Source of the DNA: Variovorax sp. DXTD-1 | GTDB lineage: Bacteria > Pseudomonadota > Gammaproteobacteria > Burkholderiales > Burkholderiaceae_C | NCBI RefSeq assembly: GCF_003984625.1 | Contig: NZ_RWKH01000011.1 | Coordinates: forward strand, 1-64,000 | DNA: 64,000 nucleotides | Direction of reading: 5' to 3' | Part shown: piece after piece, positions 12,434 through 22,062 of the stretch | Layout: each line of letters begins with the position of its first letter | Numbering within the stretch: position 1 is the first letter of the stretch | Translations under genes and position numbers: made by a program | The notes under the pieces: model-generated | Told to the model about the DNA's origin: nothing | The model's database searches: none | The model's input: only the letters and a program-made list of their open reading frames with translations

Positions 12434-13189
12434 TCAGGTCGTCGTCTGCACGTGCAGCCGGCTGGTCTTGCAGCGGTGCAGCGCGTGGTAGTGCTCCAGC
12501 GGCCGTCCGTTGGCGCCGTAGGCGATCGACTCGATGCGCAGCAGCGGCTCGGGCTGCGGCAGGTCGAGCAGCTTGCAGGTTTCGGCGTCGGGCAGCACCG
12601 CATCGATCCAGCGCTCGGCCCGCACCAGCCGCAGGCCGTATTGCCGGCGCAGCACGTCGTACAGCGAACGGTCTTCCAGGCGTGCGCGGTGCAGCCCAGG
12701 CGCCAGGTCGGCCGGCACCACCGTCTCGACCAGCAGGCGCAGTTCACCGTCCACGCTGCGCAGGCGCTTGAGCGCGACCACCTGGGTGTCGTCGGCCAGG
12801 CCCAGCGACGCGGCCTCTTGCGCCGTGGGCGCGCGCAGCTCCTGCATGAGAATCTGGGTGCGCACCGAGCGGCCCTTGCGCTCCATCTCGTCGGAGAAGC
12901 CCAGCACGGTCGAAACAAAATCTTCGTCGCGCTCGCGCGCCGACACGAAGGCGCCGCGCCCCTTGATCTTGTAGATGAGGTTGTTGCGCACCAGGTCGGC
13001 CAGTGCCTCGCGCACCACGATGCGCGAAATGCCGAACTGCTCGCCGAGCTCCGCCTCCGAGGGCAGCTTGGCGCCGATGGGCAGCACGCCCTGCAGGATC
13101 TGCAGGCGAATGGTGTCGCGAAACTGCGCCCACAGCGGCGATTCGGAGTTGCGGTCGAGCACGGTCGACATGTCGTTGGGACTGTTCAC
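12434..13189 (-). CDS. GntR-family regulator with UTRA (HutC-type) ligand domain
   Basis: The 251-residue protein starts at GTG 13189, or possibly ATG 13171 (MSTVLDRN); neither has a clear ribosome binding site. A winged helix (about 18-85) shows the GntR signature: LWAQFRDTIRLQI, LPSEAELGEQFGISRIVVREAL and KGRGAFVS. Residues ~100-245 form a UTRA domain, which binds a small effector such as a sugar phosphate. It is the last gene of the kinase / GlpD-like / gntR set (3 nt after the preceding stop), so it is probably translationally coupled and autoregulated. Likely targets are the two TGTCATAACA motifs in the divergent region 16440-16550. Confidence 0.85.
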   Translation of the reverse strand: MNSPNDMSTVLDRNSESPLWAQFRDTIRLQILQGVLPIGAKLPSEAELGEQFGISRIVVREALADLVRNNLIYKIKGRGAFVSARERDEDFVSTVLGFSDEMERKGRSVRTQILMQELRAPTAQEAASLGLADDTQVVALKRLRSVDGELRLLVETVVPADLAPGLHRARLEDRSLYDVLRRQYGLRLVRAERWIDAVLPDAETCKLLDLPQPEPLLRIESIAYGANGRPLEHYHALHRCKTSRLHVQTTT

Positions 13190-13192
13190 TTT

Positions 13193-14956
13193 TTAAGCTT
13201 GGCCGAGAACTGGACTGGCCATCAATGATGCATCGAAAGAAGGTTCCTCGCCCGTAGCCAACGCGTGAAGGCGCACGTTGTGCCGCTCGCGCAGCGCGGT
13301 GGCGCAAGCACACAGCTCGTTGTGAGCATGAGTCGCGTCCCAACCCAGCGCCTCGGCCGCAACACCCGCGATCTCGGCGAGCGCGGCATCGGTCACCAGG
13401 CCGCGAATGGCCAGCAGCGTGCGGCGAATCACGAGGTCGTCGAGATGAATCACACCGGTTTCCAGGCACAGGTAGGAGAGCTCGGCGGCCGAATAGTCCG
13501 GCGCATGCTCGAGCGGCACATCGCCCGAGGCCGCGAGGCGTTGCGCCAGCGGCAGCGCCTTCGAGCCATAGCGGCCGAGCAGGTTCAGCGCGCGCGCGCG
13601 GCCCATGCCGGAGGCCGCCGTCATCTTCTCGATGAAGCGCTCGGTTGCGGCCGCATCGGCCGGCAGGTCTGCGCCGCCACCGATGGGCAGCAGCTCGGTC
13701 GATGCGGTACGCGAGCGGCCGAGCTGCTGCAGCACTTCGTTGGTGGCTTCCTCGGCCAGCGAGCGAAAGGTGGTCCACTTGCCGCCGACGAGGCCGACGA
13801 TGGCAATGTCGCGCGTCGCATTCGGCGGATCGACCACCACCGAATGGTCGCGCGAGATCTGGCCCGGCTTGTCGGCATCGGAACGCGCGAGTGGCCGCAC
13901 GCCCACGTAGGTGTAGACCACGTCGCCGCGGCCGAAATTCATGTTCGGGAAGACTTCGCGCAGCACGTCGATCAGGTAGTCGATCTCGGCCGGCTCGGTG
14001 ACGATCTGGTCCGGGTCTTCCACCGGGATGTCGGTGGAGCCCACCAGCACGCGGTCCAGAAACGGGTAGACGATGCACACCCGCCCGTCGACCGCCTCGA
14101 AATAAGCCATGCGGCCGTCGAGCGCGTCGCGCAGCGCAGGATGGTCGAGCACGAGGTGCGAACCCTTGGTGCCCATCACGCGCGGACCGGCGCCGCCGAG
14201 CACGGCCGCACTGCGGTCGAGCCACGCGCCCGTGGCATTCACCACGGTGTCGGCCGTCACGCGCACCAGCACGCCGGTGGTCTCGTCGCGCAGCGTGAGG
14301 ATGTTGCCCGCACAGCCCATCACGCGGCAATAGTTCGCGGCGGCGGAGCGTGGCTGGTCGCGGCAGGCATCGCCGATCAGTTCGAGAATGAGCCATTCGG
14401 GATGGCTGATCCACGCATCGAAAAAAGTCGCGGTCCAGCGGATGGCCGCACGGAACAGGCCGCGGTCGGCCGACGGCACGCGGCTGATGCGGTGCCCCGG
14501 CATCACGCGCTGGCGGCGTCCCAGCAGGTCATAAAGCCGCAGGCCGAGCGCCACGGCCAACAGGCCGCGCGTGCGCTGCGGCGGCGTGCGGCCGAAGAAC
14601 TTGAGCGCGCTGCTCATCAGGCCGCCGAAGAAGTTGGCGAGCGGCACCACCGTCTTGAGCGGTCGCACCAGGTGCGGCGCATTGCGCAGCAGCAGATTGC
14701 GTTCGCGCGTGGCTTCGGCCACCAATGAGAAGCTGCCGCTCTCCAGGTAGCGCAGGCCGCCGTGGATCATGCGCGAGGGCGCGCTGCTGGCGCCGGCGCC
14801 GAAGTCGCCCTTGTCGACGATCAGGCAATCGACGCGCTGCAGCGAAAGGTCGCGGAACACGCCGACGCCGTTGATGCCGGCGCCCACGATCACGGTAGAG
14901 AAATGCCGCCCCGCCAGCGAAGCCGGGCGCACGAAGGGAAGTTGCCAGGCGCTCAT
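13193..14956 (-). CDS. GlpD-like FAD polyol-phosphate dehydrogenase
   Basis: The 587-residue protein begins at ATG 14956, overlapping the kinase stop by 4 nt. The FAD-binding motif VGAGINGVG lies at about residues 24-32, followed by the DAO/GlpD signatures RDLSLQ, GASSAPSRMIHGGLRYLE and, near 300-400, VLVGSTDIP and YTYVGVRPL. A C-terminal DAO_C-like helical domain follows (about 435-560). GlpD enzymes oxidise glycerol 3-phosphate to dihydroxyacetone phosphate at the membrane, feeding quinones. Coupling to a carbohydrate kinase and a polyol-type ABC transporter makes another polyol phosphate (compare EryB of erythritol catabolism) a more likely substrate. That substrate is inferred from context only. 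Confidence 0.8.
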   Translation of the reverse strand: MSAWQLPFVRPASLAGRHFSTVIVGAGINGVGVFRDLSLQRVDCLIVDKGDFGAGASSAPSRMIHGGLRYLESGSFSLVAEATRERNLLLRNAPHLVRPLKTVVPLANFFGGLMSSALKFFGRTPPQRTRGLLAVALGLRLYDLLGRRQRVMPGHRISRVPSADRGLFRAAIRWTATFFDAWISHPEWLILELIGDACRDQPRSAAANYCRVMGCAGNILTLRDETTGVLVRVTADTVVNATGAWLDRSAAVLGGAGPRVMGTKGSHLVLDHPALRDALDGRMAYFEAVDGRVCIVYPFLDRVLVGSTDIPVEDPDQIVTEPAEIDYLIDVLREVFPNMNFGRGDVVYTYVGVRPLARSDADKPGQISRDHSVVVDPPNATRDIAIVGLVGGKWTTFRSLAEEATNEVLQQLGRSRTASTELLPIGGGADLPADAAATERFIEKMTAASGMGRARALNLLGRYGSKALPLAQRLAASGDVPLEHAPDYSAAELSYLCLETGVIHLDDLVIRRTLLAIRGLVTDAALAEIAGVAAEALGWDATHAHNELCACATALRERHNVRLHALATGEEPSFDASLMASPVLGQA

Positions 14957-16440
14957 TTCGCGCTTCCCGCGATGTGGGTGAATACAGGTGACATGCTGTC
15001 GATCAATTCGTTGAAACCGGCGTTGAAGTCCGCATGGGCGCGTGCATCCCGCGCATCGGGCTCGATCACGTCGCAGGGCGCGAGAAGGAGGCTGCCCCGC
15101 GCGGCGTCGTCGAGCCCTTGCGACATGGCGGCGTAGAGCGCGGCGCCGCGCGCGCCGGTCTCGTCGTCGGCGCAGCGCTCGACCGGGCGCCCAAGAAAAG
15201 CGGCGAGCAGGCGCACGAGGCGTGCATCGCCCGCGCCGCCGCCGAGCACCGTCGTCTCGCCCGCCGCGAGGCCACCCGCGGCCAGGCGCGCCGTGTGCCG
15301 CGCGTGCAGCGCCGCCACGGCATCGACCACGGCACGTGCCATGTCGGCGCGCGTGTGGTGGCTCTTGAGGCCCACGAAGCCGGCGGTCACGCCACCGCCT
15401 CCGTTGACGAAGGGCAGAAAGCGCAGGCCGTTGGCGCCGAGCGGTACCGTCATGGCCAGGTCGACCACCGCGCGCGCATCGGGCAGCGCGAGCACGCCGG
15501 CCAGCCAGGCGATGTTGGCCATCGAGGAGGGGCTGTTCTCCATGTAGAGCCGCTCCTTGCTGCGGCCGAAGTTGACGACGGCGGCGACGGCGGGCTTGGG
15601 CGCCATCACCGGCCCGATGACCGCGTTTACGCACCAGGTGCCGAACACCGACACCGCGCGGCCGCGCTCTTCCGCGCAGATCGCCGTCATCGAGGCGAGC
15701 AGGTCGATGGCGCCCATGGCTACCGGAATGCCCGCCGGCAATCCGCACAGCGCGGCCTCGGAGGGCAATAACTTTCCGATCACGCTGCCGCTGGGCACGA
15801 TGGGGCCGAAGGCACGCGGACTCAGGTCTGCAAGGCCCGAGGCGTCGAAAGCCGCCTGCGACCAGGTGCCGGTAGCGAGCGACACCAGGCCGGCCGTGCT
15901 CGCATCGCTGGCGTCGGTGGCAATTTCGCCGGTCAGCAGAAAGCCGAGGTAATCCTTGGCGAACAGCAAACGGCGCAGTTCGCCGCGCTGCACGGCATCC
16001 GTGCCCAGCAACTCGGCGGCGATCACCGTGGGCTGCCCGGGCCAGGGGCTGCAGCCCACGTCCTCGAACAGCTGGGCGCCGTGGCGTGCAGACAAGGCGC
16101 GCGCCCGGGCATCGGCGCGCTGGTCGGTGGAGGCGACGGCACGGCCGCCCGCGAGTTGGTTGTCGGCATCGAGCGCATAGAGGCCGGCGCCGTGACCGGT
16201 GCAAGCCATGGCGCGGACTTCAGCCGTGCGAGGGCCGAGCTGTTGGGCGACATCGCGCAGCACGTGGGTCAACGCGGCGCGGATCGCGGACGCGCCCACC
16301 TCGCAGCCGCCTCCCGACAGCCGGTCGTGCGGCAGGGGCATGCGGGACAAGGCGACGGCGCGGCCGCTTCCGGCTTCGAGGGCCAGCGCCTTCAGGCTGC
16401 TCGAGCCCATGTCGACGCCGATCAATATGTTTGGCTTCAT
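14953..16440 (-). CDS. FGGY-family carbohydrate kinase (polyol kinase, possibly EryA-like)
   Basis: The 495-residue protein starts at ATG 16440 (MKPNILIGVDMGSSSLKALAL). The phosphate-1 motif GVDMGSSSLK and a second glycine-rich ATP motif VLGGGAGDARLVRLLA (about residue 400) mark the FGGY/actin-like kinase fold, and the length is normal for the family. TGHGAGLYALD, where xylulokinases and erythritol kinases have TGQGxG, points to a sugar or polyol substrate. It should phosphorylate the imported substrate before the GlpD-like enzyme oxidises it. The gene heads the leftward kinase, GlpD-like and gntR set; its ATG lies inside the first TGTCATAACA motif, consistent with repression by the linked GntR protein. 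Confidence 0.85.
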   Translation of the reverse strand: MKPNILIGVDMGSSSLKALALEAGSGRAVALSRMPLPHDRLSGGGCEVGASAIRAALTHVLRDVAQQLGPRTAEVRAMACTGHGAGLYALDADNQLAGGRAVASTDQRADARARALSARHGAQLFEDVGCSPWPGQPTVIAAELLGTDAVQRGELRRLLFAKDYLGFLLTGEIATDASDASTAGLVSLATGTWSQAAFDASGLADLSPRAFGPIVPSGSVIGKLLPSEAALCGLPAGIPVAMGAIDLLASMTAICAEERGRAVSVFGTWCVNAVIGPVMAPKPAVAAVVNFGRSKERLYMENSPSSMANIAWLAGVLALPDARAVVDLAMTVPLGANGLRFLPFVNGGGGVTAGFVGLKSHHTRADMARAVVDAVAALHARHTARLAAGGLAAGETTVLGGGAGDARLVRLLAAFLGRPVERCADDETGARGAALYAAMSQGLDDAARGSLLLAPCDVIEPDARDARAHADFNAGFNELIDSMSPVFTHIAGSAK

Positions 16441-16550
16441 GTCATAACAGCTTCGGCGAGTTAAAAGCGGCTCGCCAGTAGCGTTTCCCCTAGTTATCGC
16501 GGCAAACAACCCGCGATTACATTCTACCTGTCATAACAACCGTCGTGACA
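16440..16550. promoter_or_regulatory. Divergent control region with repeated TGTCATAACA motifs (candidate GntR operators)
   Basis: The 10-bp motif TGTCATAACA occurs at 16440-16449 (touching the kinase ATG) and again at 16529-16538. The second copy is part of a 22-bp inverted pattern, TGTCA at 16529-16533 and TGACA at 16546-16550. The half-sites GT...AC resemble the GT-N-TA-N-AC operator form known for HutC/UTRA-type GntR proteins, although the central bases here are AT. The position between the kinase gene and the binding-protein gene fits joint control of both operons. Confidence 0.5.
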
Positions 16551-16619
16551 ACGAGGTCCCGAAGATCTGCTCGCAAAGGCAGGTCGCAAGCTCTGCCAGT
16601 CAACGCGAGGAGACACAAG

Positions 16620-17660
16620 ATGAGGCGAAATTTCCTGAAGTCCGCTGCGGCCGCCGGTATCGGCCTGGCCGGCACCAGCGCATTTGCGCAGTCCACCCCC
16701 ACGGCCGCCGCCACCGGTTTGCGCGGCAATGCCAGCGACGTCTACGTGATGAACGTGATGGTGTCGGGCGTCGAATACTGGTTTCCGGTCTACGAAATGA
16801 TGAAGCAGCTCGGCCGCACGCTCGGTGTGCGCACGCGCTACACCGGCACGCCCGAGTACGACGTGAACAAGCAGCTGGCCTCGTTCGAGCAGGAGCTGGC
16901 GCGCAAGCCCGCGGGCATCCTGCTGCACCCGATGAACCCGGACCCGTTCATCGAGCCGATCAACCGGGCGGTGGCCATGGGCATTCCGGTCGTGACCTTC
17001 GCGGCCGACTCGCCCAACTCCAAGCGCGCATCGTTCGTCACCTCTGACAACGACCGCGAAGGCACGCAGGCGGCCGACGCGATTGCCGCGGCGCTGGGCG
17101 GCAAGGGCGAATACGCGGTGCTCGAGAACCCCGGCCAGGACAACCACGATCGCCGCATCGCGGCATTCATCAACCGCATGAAGACCAAGCACGCCGGCAT
17201 GAAGCTGGTGGGCCGCGCCGCCAGCAACCAGGACCCGAGCAAGGCCTACCAGGCGGTGCTGAGCCTGGCGCAGGCCAACCCGAACCTGGGTGCGCTGTTC
17301 ATGCCCGAAGCCAACTCGGCGTTGGGTGCGGCGCAGGCCAAGATCGAATCGAAGAAGAACATCCGCGTGATGTGCTGCGACGTGAACGCCAAGATCCTCG
17401 ACATGATCAAGGCCGGCGACGTGTTCGGCGCCATCAACCCCAACCAGGGCATGCAGGGCTACATGGGCATGATGATGCTGTTCCTGGCCAAGAACCCTTC
17501 GCTCATCGACCCCATGAACGACGCCAAGCGCAACGGCACCAATCCGATGTCGGTGCCGTTCCTGGACAACGGGCTCTCGGTGGTCAGCAAGGCCAACGCC
17601 GACGACTTCTACTGGGACAAGTACCTCGCGCGCCGCGGCACCAAGGGAATCGGCGAGTGA
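16620..17660 (+). CDS. Periplasmic sugar/polyol-binding protein of ABC transporter (RbsB-like)
   Basis: The 346-residue protein starts at ATG 16620 after a GAGGAG ribosome binding site. MRRNFLKSAAAAGIGLAG with a cut near AFAQS resembles a twin-arginine-style signal with a short Sec-like core. The Peripla_BP_4 domain (about 35-330) has NVMVSGVEYWFPVYEMMK, GILLHPMNPDPF, the DND hinge and FMPEANSALGAAQ. It should capture a monosaccharide or polyol in the periplasm and hand it to the ATPase and permease downstream (4-nt overlap with the ATPase). The ligand is unknown; the neighbouring GlpD-like, kinase and aldolase genes suggest a polyol. Confidence 0.87.
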   Translation: MRRNFLKSAAAAGIGLAGTSAFAQSTPTAAATGLRGNASDVYVMNVMVSGVEYWFPVYEMMKQLGRTLGVRTRYTGTPEYDVNKQLASFEQELARKPAGILLHPMNPDPFIEPINRAVAMGIPVVTFAADSPNSKRASFVTSDNDREGTQAADAIAAALGGKGEYAVLENPGQDNHDRRIAAFINRMKTKHAGMKLVGRAASNQDPSKAYQAVLSLAQANPNLGALFMPEANSALGAAQAKIESKKNIRVMCCDVNAKILDMIKAGDVFGAINPNQGMQGYMGMMMLFLAKNPSLIDPMNDAKRNGTNPMSVPFLDNGLSVVSKANADDFYWDKYLARRGTKGIGE

Positions 17661-19168
17661 GCAAGTTGCTCGAACTGCGCGGCATCAGCAAGCGCTTCGG
17701 CGCTTCGCGCGCGCTCTCGGGCGTGGACTTCTCGCTGCGCGCGGGGGAGATCCACGCCCTGTGCGGCGAGAACGGCGCGGGCAAGTCGACGCTGATGAAC
17801 ATCATCGACGGCATCCACCGGCCCGACGAAGGCGACATCGTTCTCAACGGCGAGAAGGTGGCCATCGACGGTCCGGCGCACGCCATGCGCCTGGGCATCG
17901 GCCTGGTGCACCAGGAGATCGCGCTGTGCGGCGACGCCACCGTGGCCGAGAACATCTTCATGCCCGAGATCAACGCGGGCAAGCAGGCGTGGATGAACTA
18001 CGCCAGCCTGAACGCGCGCGCCGCCGAAGTGCTGGCGCGGCTCGGGCAAGACATCGACCCGAGCGCGCCCGTGCGCGAACTGAGCATTTCGAACCAGCAG
18101 CTGGTGGAGATTGCCAAGGCGCTCACGCTGGACTGCAAGGTGCTGATCCTCGACGAGCCCACGGCCGCGCTCACCGACAACGAATCCGCCGCGCTCTTTC
18201 GCGTGCTGCACGACCTGAAGGCGCAGGGCATTGGCATCATCTACATCAGCCACCGCATGGCTGAAATATTCACGCACTGCGACCGCGTCACGGTGCTGCG
18301 CGACGGGCGCAACGTGCATTGCGGCCCGCTGGCCGGACTGACGGCCGATGAGCTGGTGCGCCGCATGGTGGGCCGCGAGCTCGGCAACTACTACCCGCCC
18401 AAGCAAGCCGGCGCCGAGCCCTCAGGCCCGGTGCTGGAGGTGGCCGACATCGGCGACGGCGAGCGCGTGCACGGCATTTCGTTTGCGCTGAAGCGCGGCG
18501 AGATCCTCGGCATTGCAGGCCTGATGGGCGCCGGCCGCAGCGAACTGGCCGAAACGCTGTGCGGCCTGCGCACTGCCACGCAAGGCACGGTTCGCCTGAA
18601 CGGCAAGGCGCTTGCCATCCGCAAGTACAGCGACGCGCTGCGCGAAGGCATTGCCTACCTCAGCGAAGACCGCAAGGCGGCGGGCGTGTACCTCGACCTG
18701 CCGATTGCGCAGAACATCTCTTCGATGGCGCTGCGGCGCGTGAGCTCCGGCTGGGGCCTGCTGCAGCGCTCGGCCGAACACCGCCTGGCGCGCGAGCTCG
18801 GCGCCAAGCTCAATCTCAAGTCGGACGGCGTGGCCATCGAGGTGTCGAGCCTGTCGGGCGGCAACCAGCAGAAGGTGGCCATTGCCAAGCTGCTGGCCAC
18901 CAACCCGTCGGTGCTGCTGATGGACGAGCCCACGCGCGGCGTGGACGTGGGCGCGAAGTCCGAGATCCACCACATCCTTCGCGAGCTCGCGAACCAGGGC
19001 GTGGGCGTGATCGTGATCTCTTCGGAGCTGCCCGAGATCATCGGCCTGTGCGACCGGGCGCTGGTGATCCGCGACGGACGGCTGGCCGGCGAATTGAATT
19101 CCAACGAAATGACGGAGGAAGCCCTGTTGCGGCTCGCCTCCGGACTCTGCGAACAGGAGATGGCATGA
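17657..19168 (+). CDS. Sugar ABC transporter ATP-binding protein (RbsA-like)
   Basis: The 503-residue protein starts at GTG 17657, overlapping the binding-protein stop (GTGA). It is a tandem two-ABC protein. Domain 1 (about 5-225) has GENGAGKST and ILDEPTAAL. Domain 2 (about 255-495) lacks a canonical Walker A lysine motif at GLMGAGRSE, as is usual for RbsA, but has LSGGNQQKV and MDEPTRGVD. This is the standard layout of the CUT2 class energising ribose- and polyol-type transporters. Domain 1's signature is also weak (LSISNQQLVE), again usual for CUT2. It pairs with the permease that follows (ATG inside its stop region). Confidence 0.92.
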   Translation: MSKLLELRGISKRFGASRALSGVDFSLRAGEIHALCGENGAGKSTLMNIIDGIHRPDEGDIVLNGEKVAIDGPAHAMRLGIGLVHQEIALCGDATVAENIFMPEINAGKQAWMNYASLNARAAEVLARLGQDIDPSAPVRELSISNQQLVEIAKALTLDCKVLILDEPTAALTDNESAALFRVLHDLKAQGIGIIYISHRMAEIFTHCDRVTVLRDGRNVHCGPLAGLTADELVRRMVGRELGNYYPPKQAGAEPSGPVLEVADIGDGERVHGISFALKRGEILGIAGLMGAGRSELAETLCGLRTATQGTVRLNGKALAIRKYSDALREGIAYLSEDRKAAGVYLDLPIAQNISSMALRRVSSGWGLLQRSAEHRLARELGAKLNLKSDGVAIEVSSLSGGNQQKVAIAKLLATNPSVLLMDEPTRGVDVGAKSEIHHILRELANQGVGVIVISSELPEIIGLCDRALVIRDGRLAGELNSNEMTEEALLRLASGLCEQEMA

Positions 19169-20181
19169 ACTACCCGGCACAACTCGATGCGGGCCTCGCA
19201 CCCAGGCAGTCAGGAGGCGGACCCGCAAAACCCACCAACAAGCTCACCAGCATGCGCGAGATGGGCCTGCTGCTGATCATTGCGGTGCTGTGCGTGGCGA
19301 TGAGCTTTGCGTCACCCTACTTCCTGACCTGGGAGAACGTGCGCGCGATGCTGCTGTCGTTCTCCATCGAAGGCATCGTGGTGGTCGGCATGACCATCCT
19401 GCTGATCGTCGGGGGAATCGATCTTTCGGTGGGCTCGGTGGTCTGCTTTGCGATGGTGGTCACGGGCAAGCTCTTCCTGATGGGTGTGGACCCGTGGATT
19501 GCGAGCCTGGTGGCCATCGGCGCGAGCGGGCTCATCGGCGCGATGATCGGCGGCTGCGTCACGCGCATCGGGCTCAACCACTTCATTGCATCGCTGGCTT
19601 TCATGGTGATCGTGCGCGGGCTTTGCCTTGCGCTCACGCAGGGCACGCCACAGTCGCTGTTCTCGCTGCCGGCCGAGTTCAAGTTCATCGGGCAGGGCAC
19701 GCTGTTCGGCGTTCCCGCGGTCATCCTGATCTTCATTGCCATCGTCGTCGTGAGCGACTTCGTGCTGCGCCGCTCCACCTTGCTGCGGCGCGTGTTCTAC
19801 ACCGGCAGCAACGAAAAGGCGGCGCTGTATTCGGGCATTCGCGTGGGCCGCGTGAAGTTCTGGGTCACGGTGCTGTGCGCCGCCTCGGCCGGCCTTGCGG
19901 GCGTGATCTACACGGCGCGCTTCGGCGCGGCCACGCCCACCTTCGGCGTTGGAATGGAGCTCAATGTGATTGCCGCCGCGGTGATCGGCGGGGCCAGCCT
20001 CAAGGGCGGCTCCGGCACGGTGCTGGGCGCGGTGCTCGGCCTGGCGCTGCTGTCGGTGGTGACCAGCTCGCTGATCCTGCTGGATGTGTCGCCCTACTGG
20101 CAGGACGTGATCAAGGGCCTGATCCTGCTCGCGGCCGTGACCATCGACCACCTGTTGAACACGAGAAAGAAGACCAGATGA
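19165..20181 (+). CDS. Sugar ABC transporter permease (RbsC-like)
   Basis: The 338-residue inner-membrane protein starts at ATG 19165, overlapping the ATPase stop by 4 nt. After a hydrophilic N-terminus of about 35 residues come 8-10 hydrophobic helices. BPD_transp_2 motifs are present: [11 protein letters not shown] (about residue 92), the EAA-like loop GSNEKAALYSGI and GGASLKGGSGTVLGAVLG near the end. It should form the channel as a dimer with the RbsA-like ATPase. The only long hydrophilic part is the cytoplasmic N-terminus. Confidence 0.92.
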   Translation: MNYPAQLDAGLAPRQSGGGPAKPTNKLTSMREMGLLLIIAVLCVAMSFASPYFLTWENVRAMLLSFSIEGIVVVGMTILLIVGGIDLSVGSVVCFAMVVTGKLFLMGVDPWIASLVAIGASGLIGAMIGGCVTRIGLNHFIASLAFMVIVRGLCLALTQGTPQSLFSLPAEFKFIGQGTLFGVPAVILIFIAIVVVSDFVLRRSTLLRRVFYTGSNEKAALYSGIRVGRVKFWVTVLCAASAGLAGVIYTARFGAATPTFGVGMELNVIAAAVIGGASLKGGSGTVLGAVLGLALLSVVTSSLILLDVSPYWQDVIKGLILLAAVTIDHLLNTRKKTR

Positions 20182-21170
20182 AGAGCGAGATGAAGAAGAC
20201 CACCCTGGGGCCGTCGGGCATCGAATGCTCGGCCATCGGCCTGGGCACCTGGGCCATGGGCGGATGGATGTGGGGCGGCGGGGACAACGCGGCGGCCGTC
20301 GTCGCCATCCAGGCCTCGCTGGACGCGGGCGTGAATCTGATCGACACCGCACCGGCCTACGGCCTGGGGCGCTCCGAGAGCATCGCGGGCACCGCGCTCA
20401 AGGGGCGCCGCCACGAGGCCGTGATCGCCACCAAGTGCGGCCTGGTGTGGCACACCCAAAAAGGCACGCACTTCTTCGAGGAAGACGGGCACCCGGTGTA
20501 CCGCTATCTCGGCCGCGATTCGATCTTCCATGAATGCGAAGAGAGCCTGAAGCGCCTGCAGACGGACTACATCGACCTCTACATCACGCACTGGCAGGAC
20601 AGCACCACGCCCGTGGCCGAGACCATGGATGCGCTGCTCCAGCTCAAGAAGCAGGGAAAGATCCGCGCCATCGGCGTGAGCAACGTGAGCCCCGAGACGC
20701 TTGCCGAGTACCTGCGCCATGGCCCGGTCGATGCGGCGCAGGAGCGCTACAGCCTGATCGACCGCGAGATCGAAGCCACGCTCGCGCCCTTGTGCAGCGA
20801 GCACAACGTGGCGGTGCTGGGCTATTCGTCGCTGGCGCTGGGCCTGCTTGCGGGGCCGATCGACCCGGCGCGCGAGTTCAAGGGTGACGACCAACGCGCC
20901 ACCAACCCGCGCTTCAGTGAAGCCAACCGCTCCAAGCTCAAGGCCTTCTTCGAAGAACTCGACCCGCTGCGTACGCAACTGGGCTGTTCGTTCGGCCAGA
21001 TGATGATCGCGTGGACCGTCGCACGCGGCACCGTCTCCGTCGCGCTGTGCGGCGCGCGCGTGCGCCAGCAGGCCATCGAGAACGCCGGTGCCGGCGCGGT
21101 CGAGCTGGGCGACGACGCCCTGCGTCAGATCGACGCCGCGGCAAAGCGCCACCTGGGCGCCCTCGCCTGA
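20178..21170 (+). CDS. Aldo/keto reductase
   Basis: The 330-residue protein starts at ATG 20178 in a 4-nt overlap with the permease. The catalytic tetrad of the AKR barrel can be traced: Asp and Tyr in LIDTAPAYGLGRSE, Lys in AVIATKCG and His in LYITHWQD. The C-terminal NADPH-binding stretch (IAWTVARGTVSVALCGAR) is present. It reduces an aldehyde or ketone, or oxidises the reverse, with NADP(H). Being co-transcribed with a polyol transporter and an aldolase, it may act on the aldehyde product of aldol cleavage or on the imported sugar. The substrate is not known. Confidence 0.88.
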   Translation: MKSEMKKTTLGPSGIECSAIGLGTWAMGGWMWGGGDNAAAVVAIQASLDAGVNLIDTAPAYGLGRSESIAGTALKGRRHEAVIATKCGLVWHTQKGTHFFEEDGHPVYRYLGRDSIFHECEESLKRLQTDYIDLYITHWQDSTTPVAETMDALLQLKKQGKIRAIGVSNVSPETLAEYLRHGPVDAAQERYSLIDREIEATLAPLCSEHNVAVLGYSSLALGLLAGPIDPAREFKGDDQRATNPRFSEANRSKLKAFFEELDPLRTQLGCSFGQMMIAWTVARGTVSVALCGARVRQQAIENAGAGAVELGDDALRQIDAAAKRHLGALA

Positions 21171-21210: not shown

Positions 21211-22062
21211 ATGTCGAAAGACAAGACAGCGCGGCTCAACCGGCTGCTGACCAACGGCCGCTGCCTGGACATTGCCCTGGACCACGGCGTGTGCAACGAG
21301 CCCTCGTTCCTCGACGGCCTGGAGGACATGCCCCAGGTCATGGACAAGCTCCTGGCCGCCGGGCCCGATGCGATCCAGCTCAACTACGGCCAATCCGACC
21401 TGCTGCAGGACCGGCCGGGCCGCAACAAGCCCGCGCTGGTGATGCGCATCGACATGGGCAACCCCTACAACGCCACGCTGCACCGCGTGATGTGGGCCCA
21501 GCTGCAGAACGAGCATGACCCGGTGCTGCCGGCCGTGCAGCGCGATGCGGCCTGCGTGGTGGTCAACCTCTTCATGCTGCCGAACGAGCCCGACCTGTTC
21601 CGCCAGTGCGTGCAGAACATCGCACGCGTGCGCGCCGACTGCGACCGCTACGGCATGCCGCTGATGATCGAGCCGCTGGTGATGCAGTCGCCCACGCCGG
21701 GCAGCCGCTACCAGGTCGACGGCGACGCCGAGAAGATCGTCACGCTGGTGCGCCTTGCGCGCGAGATGGGTGCCGACATCGTCAAGGCCGACCCGACCAG
21801 CGACCCCGCCGACTTCCACCGCGTGGTGCAGGCGGCGCGCTGCCCCGTGCTCGTGCGCGGGGGCGGGCGCGAAGACCTGCAGCAGGTGTTCGCGCGCTCG
21901 CGCGCACTGCTCGACCAGGGCGCCGTCGGCATGGTGTACGGGCGCAATGTGTACCAGCACGCCAATCCCTCGGCGGTGGTGAGTGCGCTGATGGCCATGA
22001 TCCACCGCGGCGCCAGCGCCAAGGAGGCGTGGGCCCTCTACGAATCGGGCGGCGCCAAGTAA
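21211..22062 (+). CDS. Class I aldolase, DhnA/LsrF-type
   Basis: The 283-residue TIM-barrel protein starts at ATG 21211 after CAAGGAG. Motifs include CLDIALDHG (about 18-26), DAIQLNYG, PLMIEPLV and MGADIVKADPTS. The Lys192 in the last motif is at the position of the Schiff-base lysine of FbaB/LsrF aldolases, and RGGG near 222 fits the phosphate-binding loop. It probably cleaves a phosphorylated ketose. With the locus kinase and GlpD-like oxidase, a ketose 1-phosphate giving dihydroxyacetone phosphate plus a short aldehyde is a reasonable model. It ends the rightward operon, 40 nt after the aldo/keto reductase. Confidence 0.82.
   Translation: MSKDKTARLNRLLTNGRCLDIALDHGVCNEPSFLDGLEDMPQVMDKLLAAGPDAIQLNYGQSDLLQDRPGRNKPALVMRIDMGNPYNATLHRVMWAQLQNEHDPVLPAVQRDAACVVVNLFMLPNEPDLFRQCVQNIARVRADCDRYGMPLMIEPLVMQSPTPGSRYQVDGDAEKIVTLVRLAREMGADIVKADPTSDPADFHRVVQAARCPVLVRGGGREDLQQVFARSRALLDQGAVGMVYGRNVYQHANPSAVVSALMAMIHRGASAKEAWALYESGGAK

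Follow-up and report, generated by a model that had tools for sequence, protein, structure and literature searches.

Gene content and control region of the locus

The window, meaning the whole stretch of DNA analysed here, spans 64,000 nucleotides of Variovorax sp. DXTD-1. It carries two operons that diverge from one intergenic region: a kinase operon on the minus strand, which ends with the gene of a GntR regulator, and a transporter operon on the plus strand. The features that matter for the present study are the following:

12434-13171, minus strand: GntR regulator with a UTRA domain, third and last gene of the kinase operon
13193-14956, minus strand: GlpD-like FAD dehydrogenase (PF01266, PF16901; reading frame checked)
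14953-16440, minus strand: FGGY carbohydrate kinase (PF00370, PF02782), first gene of the minus-strand operon
16441-16619: intergenic region between the divergent operons
16440-16449: site A, predicted operator TGTCATAACA, with one base inside the kinase start codon
16483-16492: third element GTTTCCCCTA, unchanged in 78 of the 81 distinct orthologous regions
16518-16523, plus strand: -10-like hexamer for the transporter operon, TACATT here and TATAGT or TATATT in certain relatives
16529-16538: site B, predicted operator TGTCATAACA, just 3′ of this hexamer
16541-16550: site C, degenerate third copy CGTCGTGACA, 12 bp 3′ of site B, start to start
16620-17660, plus strand: sugar ABC transporter binding protein (PF13407), first gene of the plus-strand operon
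17657-19168, plus strand: sugar ABC transporter ATPase (PF00005, two stretches)
19165-20181, plus strand: sugar ABC transporter permease (PF02653)
20178-21170, plus strand: aldo-keto reductase (PF00248)
21211-22062, plus strand: DeoC/LacD-family (DhnA/LsrF-like) aldolase (PF01791)

The start codon of the regulator is ATG, with a GTG at 13189 as a possible alternative. The aldolase has MJ0400 and LsrF among its relatives with solved structures. Judging from the enzyme families, the locus is consistent with a pathway in which a polyol or sugar would be phosphorylated, oxidised and then split by the aldolase.

On the transporter side, site B begins 5 bp past the -10-like hexamer in the window, and its start lies 11-15 bp after the start of the hexamer (TACATT, TATAGT or TATATT) in the 76 regions tested. 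A plain sigma-70 consensus scan of the region returned no promoter pair, so that a -35 element is not evident. On the kinase side, no conserved -10 element was recognised by eye in the aligned regions, and the kinase start lies directly at site A in nearly all relatives. In most Variovorax and Acidovorax regions, the kinase leader (16440-16460) holds a weak GAAG or GGAAG; no ribosome-binding sequence was seen by eye in the Achromobacter kinase leaders. A very short leader is thus possible.

The region also contains an inverted repeat, GTTATCGCGG/CCGCGATTAC (16493-16502 and 16511-16520), which was weighed as another operator candidate. Only 11 of 50 regions of the genus, that of the window included, preserve its core; the other 39 have lost it while the 10-mers stay, and we thus rejected it.

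Rarity and conservation of the two 10-mers

The initial annotation had pointed to identical 10-mers flanking the divergent control region, the first of them overlapping the kinase start codon. Both statements hold: TGTCATAACA is exact at 16440-16449 and at 16529-16538, and base 16440 is common to site A and to the kinase ATG (minus strand, 16440-16438). Site B is placed differently, its end lying 81 bases before the start codon of the binding protein (ATG at 16620).

The repeat by itself is only mildly unusual and constitutes weak evidence. Indeed, a repeated exact 10-mer of some kind arose in 480 of 20,000 Markov resamplings of 16438-16619, an AT-richer region, and the window as a whole has two places that fit the 10-mer with no more than one mismatch, against 0.85 expected, a number that 17 of 100 shuffles reach or exceed. 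At the scale of the 5.25-Mb genome, TGTNATNACA occurs at sites A and B only, when about 12 places are expected from base composition alone, and the degenerate form TGTYATRACA is likewise confined to these two sites, with about three places expected on the same basis. The same patterns read backwards served as controls and were found at two places (TGTYATRACA) and three places (TGTNATNACA). As the motif is rarer than composition predicts, what stands out is the clustering of both copies in one promoter region and not the number of copies.

What lies beyond chance is the conservation of both sites in orthologous regions. Of the 101 genomes examined in the genus, 54 encode an orthologue of the GntR regulator, counting the source genome, and one locus was fetched from each of the other 53; all eight genes are present in 49 of these loci, the remaining four being cut by contig ends. 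A first alignment comprised 50 intergenic regions of the genus, namely that of the window and 49 others, leaving out three incomplete loci (L056, L069 and L074) and one with a 5-kb gap (L082); site A is exact in 49 of the 50 and site B in 49. The set was then widened to other genera and families by pooling overlapping named and unnamed collections, which gave 117 fragments and 81 distinct regions, two hand-cut pieces of the duplicated locus L082 among them. At this locus (genome G086, L082:839-9831), a second dehydrogenase copy and a disrupted second regulator lie next to the first, and each copy has its own pair of sites.

In the 81 distinct regions, TGTYATRACA is found at site A in 80, at site B in all 81 and at both in 80, the two sites being 86-90 bp apart from start to start. 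The named part of this set started from 66 orthologous loci, of which 10 lacked the kinase or the binding-protein start (L274-L278, which are non-orthologous, were excluded). Both sites are kept in 55 of the 56 named regions that remain: 28 of 29 in Variovorax, 10 of 10 in both Achromobacter and Acidovorax, 2 of 2 in Hydrogenophaga, and the single region of each of Caldimonas, Methylibium, Ramlibacter, Rhizobacter and one MAG. The check proposed with the initial annotation, conservation of the motif upstream of orthologous loci, therefore comes out in its favour across eight named genera. Since many of the compared genomes are close relatives, these counts are to be read as constraint and not as so many independent events.

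Changes within the sites are confined to the paired positions 4 and 7, one region excepted. Site A reads TGTTATGACA (reverse complement) in 9 of the 81 regions, and site B is the perfect palindrome TGTCATGACA in six. The sole departure from TGTYATRACA is TGTAATAACA, at site A of one region (L058/L240), which is the reverse complement of TGTTATTACA found at L116, a more distant locus described below. That the repeat is due to chance, or was kept for another cause such as translation start, is thus barely conceivable: the resamplings do yield some repeated 10-mer, but both copies are conserved over several genera with changes at the paired positions in all but one region, site B ends well before the nearer start codon, and the conservation data make a chance origin very unlikely.

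A different delimitation of the operator had also been put forward, in which the second 10-mer is part of a 22-bp inverted pattern. The pattern TGTCA-N12-TGACA does exist in the window (16529-16550), and a TGACA at this distance is preserved in part of the named regions (26 of 29 in Variovorax, 9 of 10 in Acidovorax and 1 of 2 in Hydrogenophaga), as would be expected if its arms were the half-sites of the functional operator. However, the arm is missing from all 15 remaining named regions (10 from Achromobacter and one each from Caldimonas, Methylibium, Ramlibacter, Rhizobacter and the MAG locus L222), although each of them keeps both 10-mers, and site A has no TGACA partner. Because site A lacks a partner and TGACA is missing in several genera, the 22-bp repeat is not the conserved unit, and we consider it most improbable as the functional operator. 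The pattern was therefore correctly seen, but the unit is the 10-bp near-palindrome.

The TGACA arm is better read as part of site C, a lineage-specific degenerate copy of the motif to judge from the aligned regions. Site C, when read as a 10-mer, is TGTCGTGACA in 32 of the 81 regions, and in one Acidovorax region (L255) the stretch that holds the arm is a full and exact third 10-mer, TGTCATGACA, which again speaks against the 22-bp unit. A terminator-like hairpin on the minus strand (16540-16554) lies over site C; one such hairpin was found against 0.2 expected from shuffles.

The regulator and the distribution of its candidate motif

The GntR regulator scores above the cut-offs of both PF00392 (60.7 bits) and PF07702 (124.2 bits), which corresponds to a winged helix followed by a C-terminal UTRA domain. 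From this domain build, the GT-N4-AC form of the sites and an arginine that opens the recognition helix, we would place it in the HutC subfamily of the GntR family. PhnF and HutC proper share the two-domain build and are matched by NCBIfam models; the locus GntR stays below both curated cut-offs, with 132.4 bits against 156.8 for the PhnF model (TIGR02325) and 104 bits against 220 for the model of the HutC histidine repressor (TIGR02018). A search of defence families with the GntR protein gave no match.

In most sites described for the HutC subfamily, GT and AC are 4 nt apart, and the general consensus has the centre GTMTAKAC, given as a trend with exceptions (Suvorova et al. 2015, PMC4494728). 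Sites A and B have the GT-N4-AC form (TGT-CATA-ACA, and TGTYATRACA in relatives), with AT at their centre (GTCATAAC) where this consensus has TA. As the TA centre is a trend with exceptions in that source, an AT centre alone does not exclude membership of the HutC subfamily. The initial annotation had likened the half-sites to HutC/UTRA-type operators: the likeness is borne out by the spacing of GT and AC, in the terms of that source, and by the assignment of the regulator, but the picture of half-sites does not hold and the centre differs.

The closest comparison is with NagR (YvoA) of Bacillus subtilis and its dre sites (PMC4333415). The locus GntR aligns with NagR over nearly its full length, and both are associated with a GT-N4-AC palindrome. 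In NagR, as reported there, Arg48 contacts G-4 and Arg38 contacts G-5. The equivalent of Arg48 is kept in the locus GntR, within SRIVVREAL, and is invariant in six aligned proteins. By contrast, the alignment puts an alanine at the place of Arg38, the site has G at -4 and a flanking T in place of G at -5, and its centre is AT and not the TA of the dre sites. We infer that the alanine at the Arg38 place is linked to the T at -5. The two proteins also differ in their surroundings: NagR targets N-acetylglucosamine genes, whereas the locus GntR sits with kinase, dehydrogenase and sugar-transporter genes.

The layout of the locus has parallels as well. PMC4494728 describes divergons of the HutC subfamily that likewise have two sites, with the regulator gene in one of the operons, and in which weaker boxes lie 7-12 nt off the site centre; site C is comparable with these weaker boxes as described there. 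The orthologous group of the present locus is not named in the text of that article, its supplementary lists aside. A literature search with the motif letters and GntR/HutC had the motif terms in none of the matches listed, and literature searches on the pathway had nothing on the locus among the matches listed; no paper on the regulator itself stood among the matches listed either.

Both sites follow the regulator across genomes. Among 349 genomes of the family, the exact pair, at 65-95 bp, occurs in eight, each of which encodes a GntR at least 88% identical to that of the locus, and in none of the 339 family genomes without an orthologue at 75% identity or more. Two other genomes with an orthologue (83% and 75%) have variants fitting TGTYATRACA at both sites. 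The backward control pair is absent from all 349 genomes. Both sites are also present in a genome from another family of the order (G238), whose orthologue is 81% identical.

The 10-mer is also associated with other UTRA-GntR genes. Elsewhere in the genus, the start of a UTRA-GntR was matched 58-127 bp downstream of the 10-mer at 13 of 42 loci, and at none of 40 control loci. The 42 loci are non-orthologous places among the matches listed, one copy each in two genomes (G099 and G100) being left out, and the controls are loci round the backward 10-mer, for which 40 of 51 places were taken. Judged from their alignment, 12 of the 13 loci look like one orthologous regulator, and in these a second copy of the 10-mer follows directly, 10 bp on, exact in one (L123) and with its first letter altered in the other 11. 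The remaining locus (L122) has another paralogue, and there the 10-mer is present twice, 33 bp apart. For the 29 other loci, no UTRA-GntR start was found within 130 bp, and their copies may be due to chance. At L123:5804-5823 and similar loci, TGTTATGACA and a copy that is usually one letter off stand before a different UTRA-GntR, 29-36% identical.

At a larger distance, TGTNATNACA is found just upstream in 5 of 17 UTRA-GntR loci of the family (16 of them in other genera, 32-40% identity); the exact motif is absent upstream at the other 12, three of which have a near variant. The locus L116, which has a 47%-identical homologue and a rearranged gene order, bears TGTTATTACA and TGTCATTACA, one at each end of its divergent region.

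These data bear on whether the 10-mers could be the sites of a regulator other than the locus GntR. Binding by the locus GntR is deduced from sequence, and the conserved GTTTCCCCTA leaves room for another factor acting in the same region. Nevertheless, the 10-mer also precedes other UTRA-GntR genes, and among 349 family genomes the exact pair is found only together with the locus GntR. Moreover, the source genome encodes just two further UTRA proteins, and their loci, as fetched, contain no GT-N4-AC site with 10 of 12 symmetric letters, so that a different regulator seems very improbable. From their neighbours, we take one of these two genes to lie next to genes for malate and succinate dehydrogenases, the setting expected of SdhR, while its counterpart presumably adjoins a transporter.

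Predicted repression and the third conserved element

Altogether, sites A and B are very probably two separate operators of the locus GntR/UTRA repressor, each bound by one dimer, through which both operons would be repressed. The proposal that the 10-mer is a candidate operator of this regulator is thus supported, by its conservation in all but one of the distinct regions and by its GT-N4-AC form. Each 10-bp TGTYATRACA near-palindrome would be a full site for one GntR dimer. As site B lies just past the -10-like hexamer, a dimer bound there would cover the expected transcription start of the transporter operon and could block initiation or early elongation. A dimer at site A, on the kinase start codon, would block the kinase operon and, since the regulator is the third gene of this operon, would limit the synthesis of the regulator itself. 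Release by a pathway compound is the usual mode of UTRA regulators, and here we assume that a compound of the pathway would bind the UTRA domain and free GntR from the DNA. Repression of divergent operons in this way is commonplace in bacteria, and the present locus would be an unusually clear example.

An alternative to independent operators is that sites A and B act jointly through a DNA loop held by a tetramer. Their near-constant spacing is in keeping with this, and constant spacing is given as a mark of the co-operative double-site class in PMC4494728. On the other hand, 88-90 bp amounts to about 8.4-8.6 helical turns at 10.5 bp, close to half-integral, which would place the two sites near opposite faces of the helix; in addition, each site is pinned to its own gene or promoter, which could fix the spacing alone. 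We consequently regard a loop as rather unlikely, and two separately bound operators as the preferred reading.

The least ordinary part of the divergent region is the third element, GTTTCCCCTA. It is present as a single copy in the genome, about five to six being expected from composition alone. When two variable letters are allowed, its start is 42-43 bp from that of site A and 46-48 bp from that of site B in all 76 regions compared, and it is about 42 bp upstream of the probable start of the transporter transcript. At L116:6864-6872, CTAGGAAAC resembles the reverse complement of GTTTCCCCTA, and the 33-bp gap that separates it from the kinase-side operator is the same as in the window. At that locus, CTAGGAAAC sits between TTGACG and TAGACT, a promoter-like pair.

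The element could serve as an activator site or belong to a promoter. More specifically, we tentatively propose, at somewhat less than an even chance, that it works beside repression by GntR, either as the site of another factor specific to this locus or as a promoter element of a non-standard kind. If this is true, the region would be a conserved three-part switch, in which two repressor dimers, one at either end, flank a central activator.

For this regulator with a UTRA domain, the analysis yields a concrete operator candidate and a probable regulon of two operons. The presence of the 10-mer beside other UTRA-GntR genes further suggests a motif by which this branch of regulators could usefully be searched for; it would have an AT centre and a T replacing the outer G. 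Finally, the locus is a betaproteobacterial sugar or polyol locus found in at least eight genera, and the inducer of its regulator would point to the substrate of the pathway.
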